Shown here: one piece after another, positions 30,869 to 42,350 of the stretch
Numbering within the stretch: position 1 is the stretch's first letter
Layout of the letters: every line of letters starts with the position of its first letter
Origin: Clostridia bacterium
Lineage (GTDB): Bacteria > Bacillota > Clostridia > Christensenellales > Borkfalkiaceae
Direction of reading: 5' to 3'
NCBI GenBank assembly: GCA_017621155.1
Contig: JAGATP010000003.1
Span: 1 to 64,000, forward strand
DNA: 64,000 bases
Position numbers and translations under genes: made by a program
Notes under the pieces: generated by a model
What the model was told of the DNA's origin: nothing
Database searches by the model: none
Seen by the model: only the letters and a program-made list of their open reading frames with translations

Positions 30869-30901
30869 ACAGTCGCCCTTCCCGACGGGAAGGGCGACTG
30901 T
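30869..30901 (+). terminator. Strong hairpin after DegV
   Basis: Perfect 15-bp stem (30869-30883 with 30887-30901) and GAC loop. The immediate tail is T-poor, but GGGCGC plus T6 follows at 30920-30931. Confidence 0.75.
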
Positions 30902-30935: not shown

Positions 30936-30970
30936 TGTGAATAATTGTCCGAAAAAAAATAATAATTGTC
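30936..30970 (+). promoter_or_regulatory. Tandem AraC-type half-sites before the rhamnosidase promoter
   Basis: AATAATTGTC occurs at 30940-30949 and 30961-30970, exactly 21 bp apart, the second directly abutting the -35. A related pair with the same geometry precedes rhaB (35521-35555), so this is probably the operator of the AraC regulator at 33702. Confidence 0.7.
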
Positions 30971-30999
30971 TTGATGTTTTTCCGAAAATGGATTACAAT
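30971..30999 (+). promoter_or_regulatory. Promoter of the alpha-L-rhamnosidase gene
   Basis: TTGATG, 17 bases, TACAAT. Both hexamers deviate from consensus and there is no TG extension, consistent with activator dependence. Confidence 0.65.
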
Positions 31000-31052
31000 A
31001 AAGGGGACAATGAGAAGTCTTATGACTTAAAAAACGATAGGGAGGAGAATGT

Positions 31053-33605
31053 ATGCTTAAAATAGCCAATTTTACCTGCGAGCGGCTCAAAAAAGGGTGC
31101 GTGACGGACAATCCGACGCCTACGTTCGCTTATTTTGTGGAGAGCGATCGGGAGGGCGTTCACCTGATCAAGGCGGAAATTGCCTGCAACGGGGCTACCT
31201 TCGACGCATTGGAGCAGACGGGCGTCCCTTATCGGGGAAGCGATTTGCATCCCTTTACCGTCTATACGGCGACGCTTGCCGTCGAAGACAATTTCGGCGA
31301 TCGGGCGGAGGAGACAATTTCCTTTGAGACGGGTCGTCTGAACACGCCATGGAAGGGGAGCTTTATTTCGGACGGAGCATATTCCTTTACCGAGAAAAAG
31401 ACTTCTCCCGTTCCCATGAATTTCAAAAAGGAGTTTGCCGTTGCGGGTGAGGTGAAATCGGTCAAAGTGTACGCAACGGCGATCGGCATTTACGATCTGT
31501 TTCTGAACGGAAGCAGGGTCGGCAAACATTACTTTGCACCCGGATTTACTTCCTATCCGAGCCATTTGCAGTATCAGACGTACGATCTGACTGATCTTGT
31601 TCAGGGAGAAAACGAGCTGTCCTTTACCGTAGGCGGGGGCTGGGCTGTCGGCGCGTTCGTCTTTTCGAGAGTCAATCGCGTCACGGCTAAGAGACAGGCG
31701 CTCCTCGCGGAAATCCGCATCGAGTATGCGGATGGCAGAGTGGAGCTTTTCGGCACGGACGAAAGCTGGGATGTGACGATGGAGGGGAAAATGCGCTTCT
31801 CCGAATTTTACGACGGAGAAGTTTACGATGCGGGAAAGCAAGTGACGGGCTGGCACAAAGCATCTTTGGAGAAGCTTTCCGTTTCTCCCAAGATCGAAGC
31901 GCAGTACGGACTTCCCGTCACCGAGCACGAGCACTTCCAGCCCATTTCCGTAACGAAAGCGCCGAGCGGCGAGCTCGTTTACGACTTCGGTCAGAATATG
32001 GCGGGTATCGTCAAAATCAAGGTCAACGGCAAGAAGGGACAGGTGATTACCGTCCGCCATGCCGAAATCCTGACGAGAGAGGGAGAGCTCAACGTCGCCT
32101 TCCTCCGTTCGGCAAAGTGCAGATACGAATATACCTGTATCGACGGCGAACAGGAGTATGCGCCTACCATGACGTACATGGGCTTCCGCTATGCCTCCGT
32201 CAAGGGAATCGACGAAAAGGACATTTTGTCCATTGAAGCGGTTGCCCTTTATTCCGATCTCCAAACGGTCGGCTCGTTCTCGTGTTCGAATGCAATGCTC
32301 AATCAGCTTCAGAGCAACATCGTCTGGGGCGGAAAGTCCAACTTCGTGGACATTCCCACGGACTGCCCGCAGAGAGACGAGCGCATGGGCTGGACGGGGG
32401 ACATTGCCGTCTTTGCACCCACGGCGTGCTATAATTTCGACATGAGCCGCTTTTTGGACAAATGGCTCAAAGACGTCAAGTCGGAGCAGACGAGGGGCGG
32501 GGGAATCCCCAACACCGTTCCCGTTCAGGGATACGGATTCCCCGTGACGATGCCCAAGAAGGCAATCGCGTTCTGGGGAGACGCCTGCATCTACGTACCT
32601 TGGGCAGAGTATCTTGCGCATGGTGACGTTTCTGTCTTAAAGAAGATGTATCCGACCATGAAGAAGTACTTAAAAGCCTGTACCTTCTGGGCAAAGCTCT
32701 TTAGCTTCGGCAAAAATAAGTACATCTGGAATGACATTCCCGCCATGCAGTTCGGCGATTGGGTCGCGCCCGACGTCCCGCAAATGGGACAATGGCAGGC
32801 GCGCTGCAAGTGGACGGGCACGGCTTCCATCGCGTACTCCAGCTCTCTCGTCGCAAAAATTGCCCATATCTTAGGGGAGGAACAGGACGAGCTGTACTAT
32901 ACCGATCTGTACGAAAAGACGAGCGACGCCTACGTTTCTCTTCTTACGGACGGTAACGGAAAGCTTTTGAACGAGTTCCAGACCGCCTACGTCCTGCCCC
33001 TTCAATTTAAGATGTTCCGCGGAGAGGCGCGCAAGAAAGCGGCGGCGAATTTGGTCGAGCTCATCAAAAAGAACGATTACTGCATCGGCACGGGATTCCC
33101 CGGCACGCCGTTCATTCTGTTTGCATTGGCTGACAACGGCTATCCCGACGTCGCCTACAAAATGCTGCTCAATACGAAGTGTCCTTCCTGGCTGTACGAG
33201 GTAAAGGTCGGTGCGACGACTATTTGGGAGAGATGGGACGGGCTCGACGAAAACGGCGTCTGCACCATCGGCGACGACGGAACGGGCGGCATGATTTCCT
33301 TCAATCATTATGCCTTCGGCGCAGTCGGCGATTTCCTCTATCGCAGAGTCGTCGGCATCGAGGCGAAAGAGGGGGGCTACAAGACCTTCCGCGTAGAGCC
33401 TCTCGTCGGCGGAGATCTCGATTTTGCCAAGGGAAGCGTCATTACCGCTTATGGAAAAATCGAAAGCGAATGGAAAAAGGACGGCGATCGCTTTACGCTT
33501 ACCGTCATCGTTCCCGTCGGTACAAAGGCGGAAGTCATTCTTCCTTCGCGTGAGACGGAAATTTTGGAAAGCGGAACGCATACGCTAAGCTGCAATCTCC
33601 TTTGA
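31053..33605 (+). CDS. Alpha-L-rhamnosidase, glycoside hydrolase family 78
   Basis: 850-residue inverting enzyme releasing L-rhamnose from plant glycosides or pectin fragments. The N-terminal beta domains precede the (alpha/alpha)6 catalytic domain. The GH78 signature DCPQRDERMGWTGD (about 437-450) supplies the general acid, and the general-base Glu is in ATTIWERWDG (about 720). No signal peptide is visible (MLKIANFTCERLKKGC), so hydrolysis is intracellular, after uptake. The ATG follows GGAGGAG. It is a single-gene unit with its own putative AraC-controlled promoter and terminator, adjacent to the rha genes. Confidence 0.95.
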   Translation: MLKIANFTCERLKKGCVTDNPTPTFAYFVESDREGVHLIKAEIACNGATFDALEQTGVPYRGSDLHPFTVYTATLAVEDNFGDRAEETISFETGRLNTPWKGSFISDGAYSFTEKKTSPVPMNFKKEFAVAGEVKSVKVYATAIGIYDLFLNGSRVGKHYFAPGFTSYPSHLQYQTYDLTDLVQGENELSFTVGGGWAVGAFVFSRVNRVTAKRQALLAEIRIEYADGRVELFGTDESWDVTMEGKMRFSEFYDGEVYDAGKQVTGWHKASLEKLSVSPKIEAQYGLPVTEHEHFQPISVTKAPSGELVYDFGQNMAGIVKIKVNGKKGQVITVRHAEILTREGELNVAFLRSAKCRYEYTCIDGEQEYAPTMTYMGFRYASVKGIDEKDILSIEAVALYSDLQTVGSFSCSNAMLNQLQSNIVWGGKSNFVDIPTDCPQRDERMGWTGDIAVFAPTACYNFDMSRFLDKWLKDVKSEQTRGGGIPNTVPVQGYGFPVTMPKKAIAFWGDACIYVPWAEYLAHGDVSVLKKMYPTMKKYLKACTFWAKLFSFGKNKYIWNDIPAMQFGDWVAPDVPQMGQWQARCKWTGTASIAYSSSLVAKIAHILGEEQDELYYTDLYEKTSDAYVSLLTDGNGKLLNEFQTAYVLPLQFKMFRGEARKKAAANLVELIKKNDYCIGTGFPGTPFILFALADNGYPDVAYKMLLNTKCPSWLYEVKVGATTIWERWDGLDENGVCTIGDDGTGGMISFNHYAFGAVGDFLYRRVVGIEAKEGGYKTFRVEPLVGGDLDFAKGSVITAYGKIESEWKKDGDRFTLTVIVPVGTKAEVILPSRETEILESGTHTLSCNLL

Positions 33606-33612
33606 GAGTGAA

Positions 33613-33637
33613 AGCCCTGAATAATCAGGGCTTTTTT
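33613..33637 (+). terminator. Terminator of the rhamnosidase gene
   Basis: AGCCCTGA/TCAGGGCT stem, ATAA loop, T6. Confidence 0.9.
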
Positions 33638-33643
33638 CGTACG

Positions 33644-33675
33644 AAAAAAAGGCAGAAACCAAAATCGTTTCTGCC
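33644..33675 (-). terminator. Terminator of the AraC regulator gene
   Basis: On the minus strand GGCAGAAAC pairs with GTTTCTGCC around a 7-base loop and is followed by T7. Confidence 0.88.
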
Positions 33676-33701
33676 TTTTACAAGGGGAAAAGAAAGAATG
33701 A

Positions 33702-34604
33702 TCAACTGATACGGCGCAGAGAGGAGGTCTCTTCGCCGTTGTACTCCAAATCAAACGGAATGGTCGATTGTCCCATCGGATCGAAGGAATCGGAAAGTTT
33801 GTAGAATTGCATTTTTTCAAGCTTGAAATTCTTGGGAAGCTGCTTGGGCGTATAGTTCGTGATGCTCTTGAAAATGCGGTTGAAATTGCGAAGAGAATAG
33901 AAGCCGCAGTCAATGGCAACCGTCGTGATCTTGACGTTTTTTCCGCTCTGCAAGAGGTCGACTGCCTTTTCGATGCGAACCCGATTCAAGTATTGCGAAA
34001 AGGTCATGCCGACGCATTTGTGAAAGAGGGCTGAAAAATAGGTTTTGTTCAGATTCATGAATGAAACTGCGTCGTCAAAGGTATAATAGGCGTAGTTCTG
34101 ATCGATTTCCTTTAAAAGATCGTCGATATCCTTCATCCCGACGGAGAGCTCTCTCTCTTCGATGGCTTCAAAACGGTAGATTTCGATGAGAAGCCTTGCG
34201 ATGGTCACTTCGATCGCCTGTGCATAAAAAGGACGTTTCGCGGAAAGCTCTTCTTTGATGGTTCGATAACACGAGGGAATATCGTACGTTCCCTTTAATA
34301 GGGGAGGGGCAATGTAATGTGCGCCCGCAACCGATCGGGCAAGTTCTTCCGTAAAGATCAGTACGCAGACGACGCTGTCTTCCGATCCGTCGATGGCGTG
34401 AACGTCGCGGCTGTTGATGAAGATGCAGTCTCCCTTCTCTGCGTCATACGTTTTTCCGTTGCAGAACAAGCTGATGGTTCCCTCTTCGACGTAGAGTATT
34501 TCATAATCGACGTGCCAATGTGGAAGATTGTGCAAGTTTTGATACTTTCCGACCCAAACGCCTGTTTCTGCCTCGTAGTGCCTGATTTCCTGTTTTACGA
34601 TCAT
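33702..34604 (-). CDS. AraC-family transcriptional regulator, probably rhamnose-responsive
   Basis: 300 residues: an N-terminal cupin sensor domain (LPHWHVDYEILYVEEGTISL, then CIFINSRDVHAI) and a C-terminal double helix-turn-helix (about 195-290) containing GMTFSQYLNRVRIEKAVDLL and GFYSLRNFNRIFKSITNYTP. It lies between the rhamnosidase and the rhaBAD operon, convergent with the first, and the likely half-sites sit at both of those promoters. Therefore it is probably the activator of rhamnoside use (RhaR/RhaS-like by role, not proven). The ribosome site AAGGGTG precedes the ATG. Confidence 0.88.
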   Translation of the reverse strand: MIVKQEIRHYEAETGVWVGKYQNLHNLPHWHVDYEILYVEEGTISLFCNGKTYDAEKGDCIFINSRDVHAIDGSEDSVVCVLIFTEELARSVAGAHYIAPPLLKGTYDIPSCYRTIKEELSAKRPFYAQAIEVTIARLLIEIYRFEAIEERELSVGMKDIDDLLKEIDQNYAYYTFDDAVSFMNLNKTYFSALFHKCVGMTFSQYLNRVRIEKAVDLLQSGKNVKITTVAIDCGFYSLRNFNRIFKSITNYTPKQLPKNFKLEKMQFYKLSDSFDPMGQSTIPFDLEYNGEETSSLRRIS

Positions 34605-34648
34605 ATTTCACCCTTCCTAATAAAAGCGTGTCCGCTTTTTTCATTTTC

Positions 34649-34676
34649 AGTATAACAGAAACAATTTTTTTGTAAA
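34649..34676 (-). promoter_or_regulatory. Promoter of the AraC regulator gene
   Basis: Minus strand TTTACA (34671-34676), 16 bases, TATACT (34649-34654) with TGT extension. The leader contains a short AAAGCG/CGCTTT hairpin. Confidence 0.7.
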
Positions 34677-34703
34677 TACTTTTTCTCAAATCTGTTCAAA
34701 CAT

Positions 34704-34732
34704 TTGCAATTCAATCAAAAAAATGATACAAT
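34704..34732 (+). promoter_or_regulatory. Promoter of the DeoR regulator gene
   Basis: TTGCAA, 17 bases, TACAAT with TGA extension. Confidence 0.65.
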
Positions 34733-34764
34733 ACAATCAGAAATAATTAAAAGTGAGCAAAGAT

Positions 34765-35517
34765 ATGTTTTTAAATGAACGCTATGAAGCAATTCTTGCC
34801 TATCTCAAAAAGAACAGATCGGCAACCGTCAAGGAACTTTCGGGTAGATTATACGTCTCTCCCGCCACGGTGAGACGGGACTTAGAGGAAATGCAAAAGC
34901 TTGGACTTTTGCGGAGGACGCACGGCGGCGCTATCTATTATGATCAAGCCAGTGAGGTCTCTATCTTTATCCGACAGGAGTCGCGCGCGGAGGAAAAACG
35001 GGCAATTGTCAAGGCAACCATTCCGTTTTTGCCCGAATTTACGAGCGTATTCATCGACAATTCATCTACCTGTCTTGCCTTTTCGGATTTTCTCGATTTT
35101 GCCAATAAGACGGTCGTCACCAACGGGATGCAGATTGCTTCCCGAATCAGCATGCAGAATAACGTCTCGCTGTTTATGCCGGGCGGAGCCGTTCGCTACA
35201 ATACGAACGCCGTTACTGGCGAGATGACCTGCGATCAGATTCGCATGTTCCGCTACGATTTGATGGTCTGCTCTTGTGCAAAGCTCGACGCGGAGGGTTG
35301 CTACGAGCAGGATATCGCAACCGCATCGATAAAGAAAACGGCATTTTATCAGAGCAAGAAAAAGATTCTCCTTGTCGACCAGAGTAAGCTCTTGCAAAAT
35401 ACCGTCTTTAAGTCTACCAATCCGAAGGAGTACGACTTCATTGTCACCGACGCGGACGATCTTACGGTAAGCGCTCTGCGCCAAAAGGGATTGAATATCT
35501 ACAATTTCAAACGGTGA
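34765..35517 (+). CDS. DeoR-family transcriptional regulator
   Basis: 250-residue sugar-phosphate-responsive repressor. The N-terminal helix-turn-helix ATVKELSGRLYVSPATVRRD is followed by EEMQKLGLLRRTHGGAI, the DeoR signature. The C-terminal domain (about 75-250) is the ISOCOT sugar-phosphate sensor, with a TDADD-type end. The ATG at 34765 is chosen because MFLNERYEAIL matches the family start; a GTG at 34753 lacks a ribosome site. Its position directly before rhaB suggests control of rhamnose catabolism, as for Bacillus RhaR, in addition to the AraC protein. Confidence 0.88.
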   Translation: MFLNERYEAILAYLKKNRSATVKELSGRLYVSPATVRRDLEEMQKLGLLRRTHGGAIYYDQASEVSIFIRQESRAEEKRAIVKATIPFLPEFTSVFIDNSSTCLAFSDFLDFANKTVVTNGMQIASRISMQNNVSLFMPGGAVRYNTNAVTGEMTCDQIRMFRYDLMVCSCAKLDAEGCYEQDIATASIKKTAFYQSKKKILLVDQSKLLQNTVFKSTNPKEYDFIVTDADDLTVSALRQKGLNIYNFKR

Positions 35518-35520
35518 ATT

Positions 35521-35555
35521 TCAAATTGAATGTCCATGTTTTGGAAATGAGCGTC
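35521..35555 (+). promoter_or_regulatory. Tandem AraC-type half-sites before rhaB
   Basis: Two related 15-mers at 35521-35535 and 35542-35556 end in TGTCC and CGTCT, 21 bp apart. The GTC of the second ends one base before the -35. Spacing and position equal those at the rhamnosidase promoter. Confidence 0.6.
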
Positions 35556-35584
35556 TTGTTTTGCGGTCAAAATTCTGCTATAAT
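35556..35584 (+). promoter_or_regulatory. Promoter of the rhaBAD-fucO operon
   Basis: TTGTTT, 17 bases, TATAAT with TGC extension. Confidence 0.8.
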
Positions 35585-35611: not shown

Positions 35612-36997
35612 ATGATTCATCTTGCCATCGATATCGGCGCAAGCTCGGGAAGACACATGATCGGTTATTTGCAGGGCGGAAAGATCGTTTTGGAGGAGAT
35701 TTATCGCTTTCCAAACGGCGCAAAATCCGTGGACGGTTCGCTCTGCTGGGACAGCGAGGAGCTTTTCTTCCACATCAAGGAAGGACTCAAGCGCGCAAAG
35801 ACTTTGGGTAAAATTCCCGCTACCGTTTCCATCGATACGTGGGCGGTCGATTACGTTTTGCTCGATCAAAAAGATCGGGCAATCGGAAAAGTTTATTCTT
35901 ATCGGGATGAGAGGACGAGGGTTTCTTCCAAGCTCGTCCACGACGTGATTCCCTTTGAAACGCTGTATCAAAAAACGGGCATTCAGTTTCAGTATTTCAA
36001 TACCGTTTATCAGCTCTATGCGGACAAACTGAGCGGAAAACTCGACCGGGCGGAAGCAATGCTGATGCTTCCCGATTACTTTCATTTCCTTTTGACGGGA
36101 GTGAAAAAACAGGAATATACAAACGCAACCTCAACGGGCATGGTCAATGCGCGAACGCATACCTGGGATCGGGAGATGATGGACGCGCTGGGGCTTCCCG
36201 AAAAGCTCTTTCTTCCGCTCTCGCAGCCCGGTACCGTCGTCGGGGACTTTACCGATCAGATCGCACGGGAAATCGGCTACCGCGCGACCGTCGTCCTTCC
36301 CGCAACGCACGATACGGCAAGCGCCGTTCTCGCCGCACCTCTTTCGGACAAAAACGCCCTGTATCTATCGAGCGGTACCTGGTCGCTTTTGGGCGTAGAG
36401 GAGGACTTTGCTTATACCGATGAAAAGAGCAGAGCCTTTAATTTTTCCAACGAAGGAGGGCTTGGGTGCACCTTCCGCTTTCAGAAGAACATTATGGGGC
36501 TTTGGATGATTCAACAGGTTCGCCATGAGCTGAACGACGCCTACTCCTTTGCGGAGCTTGCCTCTCTCGCAAGGAAAAATCCCTGTTCCGATCGGGTGGA
36601 TTGCAACGATCAAAGGTTTCTCTCTCCCGCTTCCATGATCGGCGAAATCGAAAACGCCGTCGGAAGAAGTATGACGGTAGGGGAGCTTGCCTATTGCATC
36701 TTTGCCTCTCTCGCGCAATGCTATGACAAAGCGGTCAAAGAGCTCTCTTCCATGACGGGGAAAGCGTATACTTCCCTCAACATCATCGGCGGGGGATGCA
36801 ACAATCGCCTTCTAAACGAGTTGACCGCAAGGGAGACGAATTTGAAGATCATGACCGGGCCTTCGGAAGCCACTGCCATCGGCAATATGCTTATGCAGAT
36901 GATCGCCTCGGGCGAGATTTCGGGCATACGAGAGGGCAGAGAAATCATAAAAAAATCGTTTGACATAGAGGAGGTTTCATTTTATGGATCGCTATGA
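35612..36997 (+). CDS. rhaB: Rhamnulokinase
   Basis: 461-residue FGGY/ASKHA-fold kinase that phosphorylates L-rhamnulose at C1. Signatures: LAIDIGASSGRHMIGYL at the N-terminus, VSIDTWAVDYVLLD (catalytic-side Asp loop), the phosphate loop SSGTWSLLGVE and the adenosine motif IIGGGCNNRLLNELTA. The frame opens at 35561 inside the promoter; the ATG at 35612 with AAGGAGG 7 bases upstream is the true start. It overlaps rhaA by 14 bases, so the two are translationally coupled. It is the first gene of the operon. Confidence 0.96.
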   Translation: MIHLAIDIGASSGRHMIGYLQGGKIVLEEIYRFPNGAKSVDGSLCWDSEELFFHIKEGLKRAKTLGKIPATVSIDTWAVDYVLLDQKDRAIGKVYSYRDERTRVSSKLVHDVIPFETLYQKTGIQFQYFNTVYQLYADKLSGKLDRAEAMLMLPDYFHFLLTGVKKQEYTNATSTGMVNARTHTWDREMMDALGLPEKLFLPLSQPGTVVGDFTDQIAREIGYRATVVLPATHDTASAVLAAPLSDKNALYLSSGTWSLLGVEEDFAYTDEKSRAFNFSNEGGLGCTFRFQKNIMGLWMIQQVRHELNDAYSFAELASLARKNPCSDRVDCNDQRFLSPASMIGEIENAVGRSMTVGELAYCIFASLAQCYDKAVKELSSMTGKAYTSLNIIGGGCNNRLLNELTARETNLKIMTGPSEATAIGNMLMQMIASGEISGIREGREIIKKSFDIEEVSFYGSL

Positions 36998-38225
36998 ATC
37001 CGCAAAAGAAATGTATGCAAGCTACGGGATTGATACGGAAGCGGCTCTTTCGAAATTGAAGGAAGTTCCGATTTCTTTGCACTGCTGGCAAGGGGACGAC
37101 GTCATCGGCTTCGATTCGAAGCAGGCGCTTTCGGGGGGAATCCAGACGACGGGAAATTATCCCGGGAAAGCGACGACGCCCGAAGAGTTGATGGCGGACA
37201 TTGAAAAGGTCATTTCTTTAGTTCCCGGCAGGTTAAAGCTCAATCTTCATGCAAGCTATGCCATCATCGAAGAAGGGGATCATGCGGACAGAGACAGCAT
37301 ATCGTCCAAGCATTTTGAAAAGTGGGTCGCCTTTGCAAAGAAGCACCATATGGGATTTGATTTCAACCCGACCTTCTTCTCCCATCCTAAAATGAAAGAC
37401 GGGCTTTCTCTCACTTCGCCCGACGAAGAGACGAGAAAATTCTGGGTTGAGCACGGCAAGCGCTGCATTGAAATTTCCGAATATCTCGCCGGCGAAACGG
37501 GTATGCCGGTTGTCATGAATATCTGGATTCCCGACGGCATGAAGGACATTCCCGGAGACAGAATGGGGCCGAGAGCGAGATACAAGCAGTCTTTGGACGA
37601 GATTCTGTCCATTCCCTACGATAAGAGCAAGGTGCTTGTATGTCTCGAAAGCAAGGTGTTCGGCATCGGGTTCGAGAGCTATACGGCAGGTTCTTCGGAA
37701 TTTTGCATGAATTACGTCATGCAGAAGGGAATCCTTCCCCTGATGGACAATGGTCATTATCATCCGACTGAAGTCGTTTCCGATAAAATTTCCGCCATGC
37801 TTCTCTTCTCCGACAAGCTCGCGCTGCATGTGACGAGAGGGGTCAGATGGGACAGCGATCACGTCGTGCTCTACGACGACGAGACCAAGGAGATTATGAA
37901 GGAAATCGTTCGCTGCGACGCGCTCGACAGAGTGTTCATCGCTACGGACTACTTCGACGCCTCCATCAACCGCATTGCCGCATGGGTGACGGGCGTTCGA
38001 AGCGTGCAAAAGGCGCTTCTCTTTGCCCTTCTTCAACCGAACGCAACCTTAAAGGCGTTGCAGGACGAGGGACGCTTCACCGAGCTCATGGCGTTACAGG
38101 AGGAGCTTAAGACGATGCCCATCGGCGACGTTTGGACGGAATATCTGAAGCGGGAAGGGATTGTTTCCGCCTATATTCCGGAAATCAAAGCATATGAAGA
38201 AAAAATTCTGAAAGAGAGGATGTAA
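36984..38225 (+). CDS. rhaA: L-rhamnose isomerase
   Basis: 413-residue metal-dependent isomerase turning L-rhamnose into L-rhamnulose, the first catabolic step. The sequence follows RhaA throughout: ISLHCWQGDDVIGFDS and GGIQTTGNYPGKA in the N-terminal part, GFDFNPTFFSHPK, then metal-site residues in VCLESKVFGIGFESYT and LMDNGHYHPTE. Length is standard. The start lies inside the rhaB coding end, with GAGGAGG before it. rhaD follows one base after the stop. Confidence 0.97.
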   Translation: MDRYESAKEMYASYGIDTEAALSKLKEVPISLHCWQGDDVIGFDSKQALSGGIQTTGNYPGKATTPEELMADIEKVISLVPGRLKLNLHASYAIIEEGDHADRDSISSKHFEKWVAFAKKHHMGFDFNPTFFSHPKMKDGLSLTSPDEETRKFWVEHGKRCIEISEYLAGETGMPVVMNIWIPDGMKDIPGDRMGPRARYKQSLDEILSIPYDKSKVLVCLESKVFGIGFESYTAGSSEFCMNYVMQKGILPLMDNGHYHPTEVVSDKISAMLLFSDKLALHVTRGVRWDSDHVVLYDDETKEIMKEIVRCDALDRVFIATDYFDASINRIAAWVTGVRSVQKALLFALLQPNATLKALQDEGRFTELMALQEELKTMPIGDVWTEYLKREGIVSAYIPEIKAYEEKILKERM

Positions 38226-38226
38226 T

Positions 38227-39042
38227 ATGAAAGACATTTTAACGGCTCCCTTCGTTTTGGAGATGGAGAATACGACGGCAAATATGTACCGTCTCGGTTG
38301 GGATGAGAGAAACGGAGGTAACATTTCTTACCTTTTGGACGAAGCCGAAGTGAAGGAATACCTCGACGTTTCCAGCGTAATTCGGGAGATTCCCACCGGC
38401 TTTGACGCTCCGTCCTTGATCGGCAAGTATTTTATCGTCACGGGTACGGGGAAATATTTCAAAAACGTGAAGGATGACCCCGAAACCAACCTCGGAATTA
38501 TCCGAATTAAGGAAGACGGAAAGACGGCGCAGCTCCTTTGGGGGTATCGCGACGGCGGGAAATTTACTTCCGAGCTTCCCGCTCACCTCATGAGCCACAT
38601 GGCGAGACTTTCCGTCGACCCCGAGAACAGAGTCGTCATTCACTCCCATCCTACCTATACGCTCGCGATGAACTTCGTTCATGAGCTCGACGAAAAGAAG
38701 TTTACGCATACCCTTTGGGAAATGTGCACGGAATGCATTGTCGTCTTCCCCGACGGCGTGGGCATTCTCCCTTGGATGCTCTGCGGCACCAATTCCATCG
38801 GCGAGGCGACAGCGTCAAAGATGAAGGAGTTCCGCCTTGTCGTTTGGGGAATGCACGGAATTTACGGCGCGGGTAAATCCCTCGACGAGACCTTCGGACT
38901 CATCGAAACGGTAGAGAAGGCGGCACAGATTTACATGCTCACCTGTCATATGCCGCGGGTCAACACCATCAAGGATTCCGAAATGAAGGAGCTTGCGGAG
39001 TTCTTCGGCGTCAATTACAGAAAGGACTTTTTGAATCTTTGA
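38227..39042 (+). CDS. rhaD: Rhamnulose-1-phosphate aldolase
   Basis: 271-residue class II aldolase that splits L-rhamnulose-1-phosphate into dihydroxyacetone phosphate and L-lactaldehyde. Zinc-binding His residues are visible in VIHSHPTYTLAM (about 138-149) and VVWGMHGIYGAGKS. RLGWDERNGGNISYLL is the RhaD N-terminal signature. The last codons and the stop lie inside an 8-bp tandem repeat (39031-39062). The operon continues into the lactaldehyde reductase after 60 bases. Confidence 0.96.
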   Translation: MKDILTAPFVLEMENTTANMYRLGWDERNGGNISYLLDEAEVKEYLDVSSVIREIPTGFDAPSLIGKYFIVTGTGKYFKNVKDDPETNLGIIRIKEDGKTAQLLWGYRDGGKFTSELPAHLMSHMARLSVDPENRVVIHSHPTYTLAMNFVHELDEKKFTHTLWEMCTECIVVFPDGVGILPWMLCGTNSIGEATASKMKEFRLVVWGMHGIYGAGKSLDETFGLIETVEKAAQIYMLTCHMPRVNTIKDSEMKELAEFFGVNYRKDFLNL

Positions 39043-39062
39043 ATCTTTGAATCTTTGAATCC
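39031..39062 (+). repeat. Four tandem copies of an 8-bp unit at the end of rhaD
   Basis: TTGAATCT three times, then TTGAATCC. The rhaD stop TGA falls in the second unit, so copy-number changes would alter only the rhaD-fucO spacing, not the protein, as long as two units remain. Confidence 0.9.
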
Positions 39063-39102
39063 GAATCGGATGATAGATAAAAACTATTAGGAGAAATAAA
39101 TT

Positions 39103-40248
39103 ATGGCAAGAATCGTACTCAATGAAACTTCCTACCACGGAGCGGGCTGCCTTGCGGAGATCGCAGGGGAGATTGAAAGAAGAGGCTTTCAGAAGGCGTT
39201 TGTCTGTTCCGACCCCGACCTCGTGAAGTTCGGCGTCACTCAAAAGGTGCTCGACCTTCTTGACAAAGCGGGAGACGCTTACGAGCTTTATTCCAACATT
39301 AAGCCCAATCCCACCATCGAAGACGTACAGACGGGTGTCGCTGCGTTTAAGGCGAGCGGAGCAGACTACATCGTCGCCATCGGCGGCGGCTCTTCCATGG
39401 ATACCGCCAAGGCAATCGGCATCATCATTGCAAATCCCGAATTTGAAGACGTTCGGTCTCTCGAGGGCGTAGCGCCTACCAAAAAGCCCTGCGTTCCCAT
39501 TCTTGCCGTTCCGACGACTGCGGGCACGGCTGCGGAAGTGACGATCAACTATGTCATCACCGACGTGGAAAAGAAGAGAAAGTTCGTCTGCGTCGATACG
39601 CACGATATTCCCGTCGTAGCGTTTATCGATCCTGAAATGATGTCCACCATGCCCAAGGGACTGACCGCTGCGACGGGTATGGACGCTTTGACTCATGCAA
39701 TCGAAGGCTACATCACGAAAGGCGCATGGGAGATGACGGATATGTTCCATCTCGAAGCCATTCGTCTCATCTCCGCAAACCTTCGCGGCGCGGTGCAGAA
39801 TACCAAAGAAGGAAGAGAGGGCATGGCGCTCGGTCAGTACATTGCCGGTATGGGATTCTCCAACGTAGGTCTCGGCATCGTACATTCCATGGCGCACGCG
39901 CTCGGTGCGGTCTATGATACCCCTCACGGTGTCGGAAACGCCATTCTTCTGCCCACCGTCATGGAATACAACGCGGAAACCACGGGCGAAAAATATCGTG
40001 AAATCGCAAGGGCAATGGGCGTGAAAGGCGTTGACGAGATGTCGCAGGAAGAGTACAGAAAGGCGGCGGTCGACGCAGTCAAGCAGCTTTCCAAGGACGT
40101 CGGCATTCCGCAGGATCTTAAGGCAATCGTAAAAGATGAGGACGTTGACTTCCTTGCGCAGTCCGCAATGGACGACGCATGCCGCCCCGGCAATCCTAAG
40201 GATCCCACCAAGGAAGACATCATTGCGCTCTATCGTTCGTTGATGTAA
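39103..40248 (+). CDS. fucO: Lactaldehyde reductase (iron-containing alcohol dehydrogenase)
   Basis: 381-residue group III alcohol dehydrogenase. NAD-binding GGGSSMDTAKAIG is near 95-107. The iron ligands lie in GMDALTHAIEGY and GIVHSMAHALGAVYDTPHG (Asp and three His). Fourth in the rha operon, it should reduce L-lactaldehyde from the aldolase to L-1,2-propanediol, regenerating NAD+ under anaerobic conditions. FucO is assigned from operon position as well as sequence. No propanediol-utilisation genes are in view. Confidence 0.93.
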   Translation: MARIVLNETSYHGAGCLAEIAGEIERRGFQKAFVCSDPDLVKFGVTQKVLDLLDKAGDAYELYSNIKPNPTIEDVQTGVAAFKASGADYIVAIGGGSSMDTAKAIGIIIANPEFEDVRSLEGVAPTKKPCVPILAVPTTAGTAAEVTINYVITDVEKKRKFVCVDTHDIPVVAFIDPEMMSTMPKGLTAATGMDALTHAIEGYITKGAWEMTDMFHLEAIRLISANLRGAVQNTKEGREGMALGQYIAGMGFSNVGLGIVHSMAHALGAVYDTPHGVGNAILLPTVMEYNAETTGEKYREIARAMGVKGVDEMSQEEYRKAAVDAVKQLSKDVGIPQDLKAIVKDEDVDFLAQSAMDDACRPGNPKDPTKEDIIALYRSLM

Positions 40249-40278
40249 AAATTTAACGATAAAATTTCCCATAACCCC

Positions 40279-40307
40279 TTGACCGTTTCGGCTTATCGTG
40301 CTATAAT
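40279..40307 (+). promoter_or_regulatory. Promoter of the GPH-type transporter gene
   Basis: TTGACC, 17 bases, TATAAT with TGC extension. It lacks the AraC-type half-sites seen at the two other rha promoters. Confidence 0.82.
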
Positions 40308-40364
40308 AGCTTTATCCGATCAATGAGTGTAGGGTCGGGAAATCTGTATTTTAGGAGGAAGATG

Positions 40365-42350
40365 ATGAAAAAAACAAAAAAAAGCATTTTTGATAGTCCC
40401 GTTTTCAAATCGAGAATCAAATCTGCTAACACGACGTTGTTCCCGGAAGGAGTGTTAGGCTATCTCGTGGGCCCTACGCTTGCATTGCTTGCGAACTCTA
40501 TTCTGTCGAACTACTTTAATCAGTACATGACCGACGTGCTGAAAATCAACGATTGGTTGGGTGAGTTTGGTAAATTGTTCTTTACTTGGCTTCCCGTTAT
40601 CTCCGTTATTTTCGTCGTGGCGGGCAATATTATCGTTGGACGACTGCTCGATCGTGCGCCGTCGAAGGCGGGTAAGGCGAGACCGCTTTTGCTTCTCTCC
40701 GTTCCCGTGTCCCTCATCGCGCTCATCGTATTGTTCGTGCTTTTGCCCAATCCCGACGGCATTACGGAAGGGCAGCAGATTTTCGGAATGGTCACGATTG
40801 CGATCGGCTATATCCTTTGGTTTGGCTTTGCTTATCCTCTGTACTATACGCCGCACGCAGCGCTCGTCAACCTCTCGACGCGCAGCAGTAAGGATCGTTC
40901 CTTGCTTGCAACCCTCTCCAATGCGACCGCGCTTGCCGCAATGGGCGTTACCTCTATGGTTCTTCCCTTCTTCCTGGGACTTCTTTTCAAGAGAGTTACC
41001 GATCCCGCACTTGTGCCCGAAGGTGCAAAACCTCTGCCCGATGGCGGCTTCGAACTCAACGGTTCGATTATTTACGACCAGTCAGCTTCCTTCAACGCAT
41101 GGAAGGTGTTTGTTATCGCACTGATTATCATCACTTTTATCGGCGCGGTGATCGAGTTTATGTTCACCCGTGAACGTGTCACCGAAGAAACTTTGACCGC
41201 TTCTCATAATGAAGAGAAAAAGGCTCTTCCCTTCGGCGAACAGGCTGCGATCTGCTTTAAGGACAAATTCTGGTGGATCATGATGGTGTTCTTCTTCCTC
41301 TATCAGCTCGGCGGTATGTTGAAGAACGTATCTCAGCTTTATTATTGTGCTGCTAATTTCGGAACTGTCAATCCTGAAACTGGTAATATGGCATACGGTC
41401 TTGATATCGGTGGTACGTTCTCCGGAACGATCGGTATCGTCGGCGCAATTCCCACTGCGATCGGTATGGTCATCGCCGTGCCTCTTTCCAACAAGATCGG
41501 TAAGGGAAAATCCATTCTCTTCGGATCGATTATCGCCGCTGCCGGCGGTGTCCTGGGACTGTTTGCGAACGGTAACTTCATTGTCGCCGTTGTGGCATTC
41601 GTCATCAAGGCGCTCGGCTCGACTCCCGCTATGTATCTGTCCCTTGCGCTTTTGGGCGACGTATTCGACCATCAGGAGGCAATGACCGGGAAGAAAACAG
41701 ACGGCTTCACGATGATGATTTACGGTGCGATCATGGCAGGAATGACGGGTATCGCGACTGGTATCATGAACGGCGTTATCGCGGCTTATGGCGCGGGTAC
41801 GACAGGCTTTGACTATCAGACGATCGCAATGCCGATGAGCTTTATCTTCTTCGGCGGCGAGGCGCTCTGCTACGTCGTTATCTTCATCATCTTCCTGTTC
41901 ATGGGCGTTGAGAAGTTCTCCGCATTTGACCATAAGGCTATCGTTATGGATCAGAAGGCTGCTGCTGCCGCCGCAGGCGTCGAGTACGTCGATCCTGCCG
42001 TGAAGCTCGCGCTGGAAGAGGAGGAAGCCAACAAGGCTGCCGATGCTGCTAGAATGGAAGAGCTGAAAGTGGCGTGCGAGAAGAAGGGCTTGAATTTCGA
42101 AGCGGAAAAAGCCAAGTATCAGGAAAATCTTGCAAAGAAGCAAGCTGAAGCGGCAGCGAAGAAAGAGGCTGCCGAAAAGGCAAAAGCCGAAAAGCAAGCT
42201 GCAAAGCTCGCCGCTATGACGGAAGAGCAGAAAGCTGCCATGAAGGCAAAGGAAGAGGCAAAAGCGAAAAAGCAGGCTGAAATCGATGCCAAGGTTCTCG
42301 AAGAGTTCAACAAACTCAGAGAGCGCAACGGTCAGCCCATCCTCGAATAA
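40365..42350 (+). CDS. GPH/MFS-type sugar symporter with long charged C-terminal tail
   Basis: 661 residues. The first about 515 form a 12-helix glycoside-pentoside-hexuronide cation symporter domain (VGPTLALLANSILSNYFNQY, GRLLDRAPSKAGKARP, VNLSTRSSKDRSLLAT). The last about 130 are cytoplasmic and highly charged, rich in Ala, Lys and Glu, and predicted helical or coiled-coil (about 555-650). Relatives normally end near 450-500. It probably imports rhamnose or rhamnosides, given the neighbouring genes. The start at 40365 has AGGAGG 6 bases upstream; 40362 is an alternative, and 40323 has no ribosome site. Confidence 0.85.
   Translation: MKKTKKSIFDSPVFKSRIKSANTTLFPEGVLGYLVGPTLALLANSILSNYFNQYMTDVLKINDWLGEFGKLFFTWLPVISVIFVVAGNIIVGRLLDRAPSKAGKARPLLLLSVPVSLIALIVLFVLLPNPDGITEGQQIFGMVTIAIGYILWFGFAYPLYYTPHAALVNLSTRSSKDRSLLATLSNATALAAMGVTSMVLPFFLGLLFKRVTDPALVPEGAKPLPDGGFELNGSIIYDQSASFNAWKVFVIALIIITFIGAVIEFMFTRERVTEETLTASHNEEKKALPFGEQAAICFKDKFWWIMMVFFFLYQLGGMLKNVSQLYYCAANFGTVNPETGNMAYGLDIGGTFSGTIGIVGAIPTAIGMVIAVPLSNKIGKGKSILFGSIIAAAGGVLGLFANGNFIVAVVAFVIKALGSTPAMYLSLALLGDVFDHQEAMTGKKTDGFTMMIYGAIMAGMTGIATGIMNGVIAAYGAGTTGFDYQTIAMPMSFIFFGGEALCYVVIFIIFLFMGVEKFSAFDHKAIVMDQKAAAAAAGVEYVDPAVKLALEEEEANKAADAARMEELKVACEKKGLNFEAEKAKYQENLAKKQAEAAAKKEAAEKAKAEKQAAKLAAMTEEQKAAMKAKEEAKAKKQAEIDAKVLEEFNKLRERNGQPILE

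Follow-up and report, generated by a model that had tools for sequence, protein, structure and literature searches.

Paired 21-bp direct repeats at two rhamnose promoters of a Clostridia bacterium are very probably operators of a neighboring AraC-family regulator

We find that 2 promoters of a rhamnose locus in a Clostridia bacterium each carry a pair of direct half-sites, and that these repeats are very probably the operators of the AraC-family protein encoded beside them, judging from similar operators next to homologous araC genes. On the same grounds, it appears likely, and we hold this with good confidence, that the local AraC protein (33702-34604) would bind both pairs and activate the GH78 rhamnosidase gene and the rhaB operon on sensing a sugar of the pathway. 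The DNA analyzed, hereafter the window, is a stretch of 64,000 nucleotides (contig JAGATP010000003.1), and its relevant features are as follows.

30936-30950, + strand: distal AraC half-site of the GH78 promoter, with AATAATTGTCC at 30940-30950; rank 1 in the window with a matrix that excludes it
30957-30971, + strand: proximal AraC half-site of the GH78 promoter, with AATAATTGTCT at 30961-30971; its final T is the first base of the -35 box
30971-30999, + strand: GH78 promoter, TTGATG (30971-30976), 17 bp, TACAAT (30994-30999)
31053-33605, + strand: GH78 alpha-L-rhamnosidase gene (Pfam PF17389, E 4e-104, and other Bac_rhamnosid domains)
33702-34604, - strand: AraC-family regulator gene, the proposed binder (Pfam HTH_18 and AraC_binding, i.e. 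cupin sensor and double HTH; homologues have a like operator)
34748-34759, + strand: candidate DeoR box TAAAAGTGAGCA, just after the deoR -10, from a matrix of 13 related deoR upstream regions
34753-35517, + strand: DeoR-family regulator gene (Pfam DeoRC and HTH_DeoR; homologues at 13 related rha loci)
35521-35535, + strand: distal AraC half-site of the rhaB promoter, with ATTGAATGTCC at 35525-35535; rank 2 in the window with the independent matrix
35542-35556, + strand: proximal AraC half-site of the rhaB promoter, with AATGAGCGTCT at 35546-35556; its final T is the first base of the -35 box
35556-35584, + strand: rhaB promoter, TTGTTT (35556-35561), 17 bp, TATAAT (35579-35584); weak -35, perfect -10
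35612-36997, + strand: rhaB rhamnulokinase gene, first in the putatively regulated operon (TIGR02627, 502.8 bits against a cut-off of 528)
36984-42350, + strand: rhaA, rhaD, lactaldehyde reductase (fucO type), and GPH-family symporter genes, downstream of rhaB

The locus runs from the GH78 rhamnosidase through the AraC regulator (minus strand), the DeoR regulator, rhamnulokinase, rhamnose isomerase, rhamnulose-1-phosphate aldolase, and lactaldehyde reductase to the GPH symporter. A sequence-only reading of this DNA had correctly placed an AraC gene between the 2 promoters, but had overlooked the DeoR gene lying between AraC and rhaB. The AraC protein has the features of the AraC/XylS family, i.e. 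a C-terminal double HTH (HTH_18, 65.6 bits, cut-off 33.6; HTH_AraC, 52.7 bits, cut-off 26.6), an N-terminal cupin domain (AraC_binding, 42.7 bits, cut-off 21.1), and a candidate operator that abuts or overlaps the -35 box. The DeoR gene probably starts at the ATG at 34765, with the listed GTG 12 bases too early; DeoR homologues begin at the equivalent of this ATG, and the candidate DeoR box overlaps the GTG. A second cluster in the same genome (L239:1345-8929, G000:C6) contains a transporter, GH78, GH3, and a second rhamnulose-1-phosphate aldolase, and no AraC operator was found within the stretch of it that was read.

All 4 half-sites conform to the pattern A.T.A..GTC(C/T), and both pairs repeat at 21 bp (30940-30971 and 35525-35556), exactly as the sequence-only reading had described. 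Its placement of the last GTC against the -35 box also holds at both promoters, where the proximal GTC (30968-30970 and 35553-35555) ends directly before the hexamer. The -35 boxes match the consensus at 4 of 6 positions for GH78 and at 3 of 6 for rhaB, which is why the rhaB promoter is absent from a consensus scan; such weak boxes would suit control by activation. Between the half-sites there is no middle copy, so the repeats, at a period of 21 bp, do not show the 10-11 bp spacing of DeoR-type sites. Upstream, between the preceding gene and the GH78 promoter, lies a strong terminator-like hairpin of 15 pairs (30869-30901). A pattern scan of the 2.05-Mb genome finds these 2 as the only perfect (mismatch-free) 21-bp pairs, a count that is no independent proof because the pattern was taken from the window sites themselves; the noncircular evidence is a matrix derived from other loci.

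Protein searches in the same order identified AraC homologues with 34-45% identity, mostly outside rhamnose loci, and the DNA beside their genes has a like operator in the divergent promoter, e.g. AATAAATGTCC-N10-AATATATTTCTTG followed by a -10. A matrix was built from 15 such sites at 14 loci, none of them from the window and one being the C5 paralogue of the window's own genome. With this matrix the window sites score 19.6 and 12.2; none of the other roughly 128,000 window positions exceeds 2.7. A score of 10 is reached at 27 of the 2.3 million positions scanned across all loci, mostly beside araC genes of this kind. In a held-out set drawn from a later search of 398 family genomes, all 24 further araC homologues (37-43% identical) have a site scoring at least 20 in the araC-side promoter, although sites from related species are only partly independent of one another and one held-out locus (L219) is not independent of the training set, as it shares 62 identical bases with the C5 training site. 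Among the controls, a score of 11 is reached at 4 of 24 loci with a more distant AraC gene and in 1 of 240 random sequences (first-order). The 62 bases in question, covering operator and promoter, are identical between L219 (genome G648, another genus) and the C5 paralogue locus (L169), which suggests recent transfer or misassigned contigs.

The homologous loci all retain the 21-bp period and a CTT at the start of the -35, with the operator placed as in the window with respect to -35 and -10. Alignment of the HTH segments shows a close match between the window AraC and its subfamily homologues, in which this region is well conserved. That the repeats are operators of an AraC-type activator, bound by the protein encoded between the promoters, had been proposed from the sequence alone, and it now gains strong support from homologous loci found by protein search alone that carry near-identical operators. 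Of all family members, the rhaB site scores lowest (12.2-12.4). The 398 family genomes yielded no close orthologue of the window AraC (the best is 43% identical); in named genomes, the search for AraC relatives returned only unrelated AraC genes, and in an AraC tree the window protein does not group with the AraC proteins of other rha loci.

The consensus of 40 sites reads GTCAATAAATGTCC, seven less conserved bases, and then G.CAA.A...T.CTTG, i.e. the distal copy recurs, in the same frame but less strongly, as the proximal one. This shape fits 2 monomers that would each touch 2 successive major grooves, with the -35 built into the proximal half. At one locus, 2 complete operators (L163:9293 and 9453), each with -35 and -10, stand in tandem 160 bp apart beside a single araC gene. 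The sites, their register, their match to the operators beside homologous araC genes, and the gene functions are directly visible in the DNA, and we infer in turn binding by the window AraC, activation, and the ligand. In the mechanism we propose, 2 AraC monomers would bind head to tail on half-sites that are about one and a half helical turns long (in the family consensus, G.CAATAAATGTCC) and lie 2 turns apart. Since the proximal monomer would lie against the -35, the bound dimer could contact RNA polymerase and activate the weak promoters, presumably those of the rhamnosidase gene and the rhaB-rhaA-rhaD-fucO-transporter operon. The trigger would be a pathway sugar sensed by the cupin domain, most likely L-rhamnose or a rhamnoside product. 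The DeoR-family regulator probably forms a second layer of control, its candidate box here being found only at its own promoter.

Rhamnose loci of relatives differ in their regulators. Among 40 rha loci read in relatives, DeoR homologues (33-51% identical) occur at 13, in many cases transcribed divergently from rhaB or GH78, and AraC homologues at 4 (L128, L132, L133, and L134), in 3 of which the gene is divergent to DeoR as in the window. As such, DeoR and not AraC is the recurrent rhamnose neighbor in relatives. The 21-bp operator was found at the rha or GH78 promoters of none of these 40 loci, including the 4 with an AraC homologue, so that its conservation at the rha genes of relatives, a mark of the published regulons, is not seen here; where present, it sits at other genes (GH2 in L127 and L128; GH3 in L133). 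The sequence-only reading had named loci with an AraC neighbor and no repeats as a result that would count against it, and L128, L132, L133, and L134 are of this kind, which bears on the rhamnose part of the claim only. Use of the operator at the rha operon may be particular to the window lineage, in which rhamnose control was likely rewired. At L127 (position 13123, genome G287), an operator precedes a GH2 gene of a rha locus with no adjacent araC; the AraC homologue of that genome is on another contig, and this operator is possibly controlled in trans.

Several other explanations of the repeats have to be weighed. Chance resemblance within AT-rich promoter DNA would produce lone half-sites at the chance rate, and these are indeed at that level in the window (10 found vs 11.4 expected). 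The 21-bp pairs, however, number 2 against 0.00 expected (100 shuffles), their distance to the -35 is identical at both promoters, and the top 2 ranks given to them by the independent matrix contradict chance, which we regard as an extremely unlikely explanation. The DeoR-family protein, binding the repeats as a repressor, is a serious rival because its gene is the nearest one upstream of rhaB; it also draws support from the recurrence of its homologues at the 13 rha loci, and from the proximal rhaB half-site, which contains AAATGAGC, similar to a DeoR box. Against this, Gibbs sampling of the 13 deoR upstream regions yields a box of another kind, CA.AAAYG(A/C)GCA, which often occurs as tandem copies 10-12 bp apart (181 bits vs about 140 in shuffled controls), and neither the GH78 nor the rhaB promoter has a well-scoring copy of it. 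Moreover, loci with DeoR but no nearby AraC are without the 21-bp operator, except L127 with its site at the GH2 gene, and no DeoR homologue was detected in the 3-4 kb read at held-out AraC loci with the operator. The window sites also stand upstream of the -35; the DeoR boxes of relatives are often near or past the -10. We thus see little prospect for DeoR as the binder of these repeats. Its candidate box ranks 32 in the window and is weak alone; autoregulation of DeoR, together with some part in rha control, is plausible.

It is also unlikely that a paralogous AraC protein binds the window operators, alone or in competition with the local one. Two paralogues are encoded in the genome (C5:6798-7634 and C21:83953-84762), both 39-41% identical to the window AraC, and each is linked to a site of the same type, which speaks for such binding. 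For C5, which is linked to a GH3 gene, the site is beside the gene and scores 42.6; for C21, it scores 20.3 and is about 9 kb away (L241:8582, G000:C21:74582), before an operon of FGGY kinase and L-arabinose isomerase (araA). For each paralogue, however, there is a site closer to its gene, the window AraC is the nearest to the window sites, and these sites deviate from the family consensus (AATAATTGTC).

Because paralogue sites lie at a GH3 gene and an araBA-like operon, the motif is not specific to rhamnose; judged from these sites, it is the operator of an AraC subfamily that serves several sugars and is used here at rhamnose genes. The motif had been put forward as that of a rhamnose regulon, and this is right insofar as operators stand at rha genes, but a rhamnose-only scope is too narrow, given that paralogue sites stand at other sugar genes. 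A loose pattern for further targets gives 74 matches in the genome vs 55 in the control, and matrix rescoring of 32 among the matches listed kept the window sites, C5, C21, and the weaker C15:242 and C34:87285, neither of the latter 2 being at an evident sugar gene. We tentatively suggest, as a possibility somewhat short of even, that a single AraC subfamily, its operator nearly unchanged (GTCAATAAATGTCC repeated at 21 bp onto the -35), spread through the order and became joined to different sugar genes, and that a divergent member was recruited here to a rhamnose operon tied to DeoR in relatives. If this is true, either the 3 paralogues share targets, or small differences in their half-sites and recognition helices must keep them from cross-talk.

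The analysis yields an operator code, tested by computation, for an AraC subfamily that is widespread in an order represented mainly by draft genomes. Target genes of uncharacterized araC genes in this order thereby become predictable from sequence, and the paralogue set suits study of how regulators remain separate when their DNA sites are almost identical. The operator architecture itself is already known and is textbook material. For example, E. coli AraC at araI1-araI2 uses direct half-sites with a spacing of 21 bp, the second of which extends to the -35; the window protein matches the AraC model weakly (30 bits, cut-off 208). Like the window AraC as we propose it, E. coli RhaS and RhaR are AraC-family activators of rhamnose genes; the window protein reaches 40-55 bits with the NCBIfam RhaS/RhaR models, below their cut-offs of 288-525, and is thus not assigned as an equivalog. 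The RhaS/RhaR sites are inverted repeats of 17-bp half-sites (PMC3870299), unlike the direct repeats of the window. The same study describes DeoR-type RhaR regulators with 10-11-bp repeats in Rhizobium, Thermotoga, and Chloroflexus; the window locus resembles these in its DeoR gene and in the tandem boxes at 10-12 bp of relatives, a box unlike the 21-bp motif. A literature search for similar operators returned nothing related, only unrelated GntR work. The closest likeness is to the AraC-type rhamnose regulators with 21-bp direct repeats reported in Bacillales, Bacteroides, and Enterococcus, groups reported to have unique motifs (PMC3870299). The window belongs to a different lineage and is likened to them by description, so its motif letters may match one of these groups; it shares with them an AraC protein in the rhamnose locus and 21-bp direct repeats at rha genes, and the window system is therefore of a described kind.
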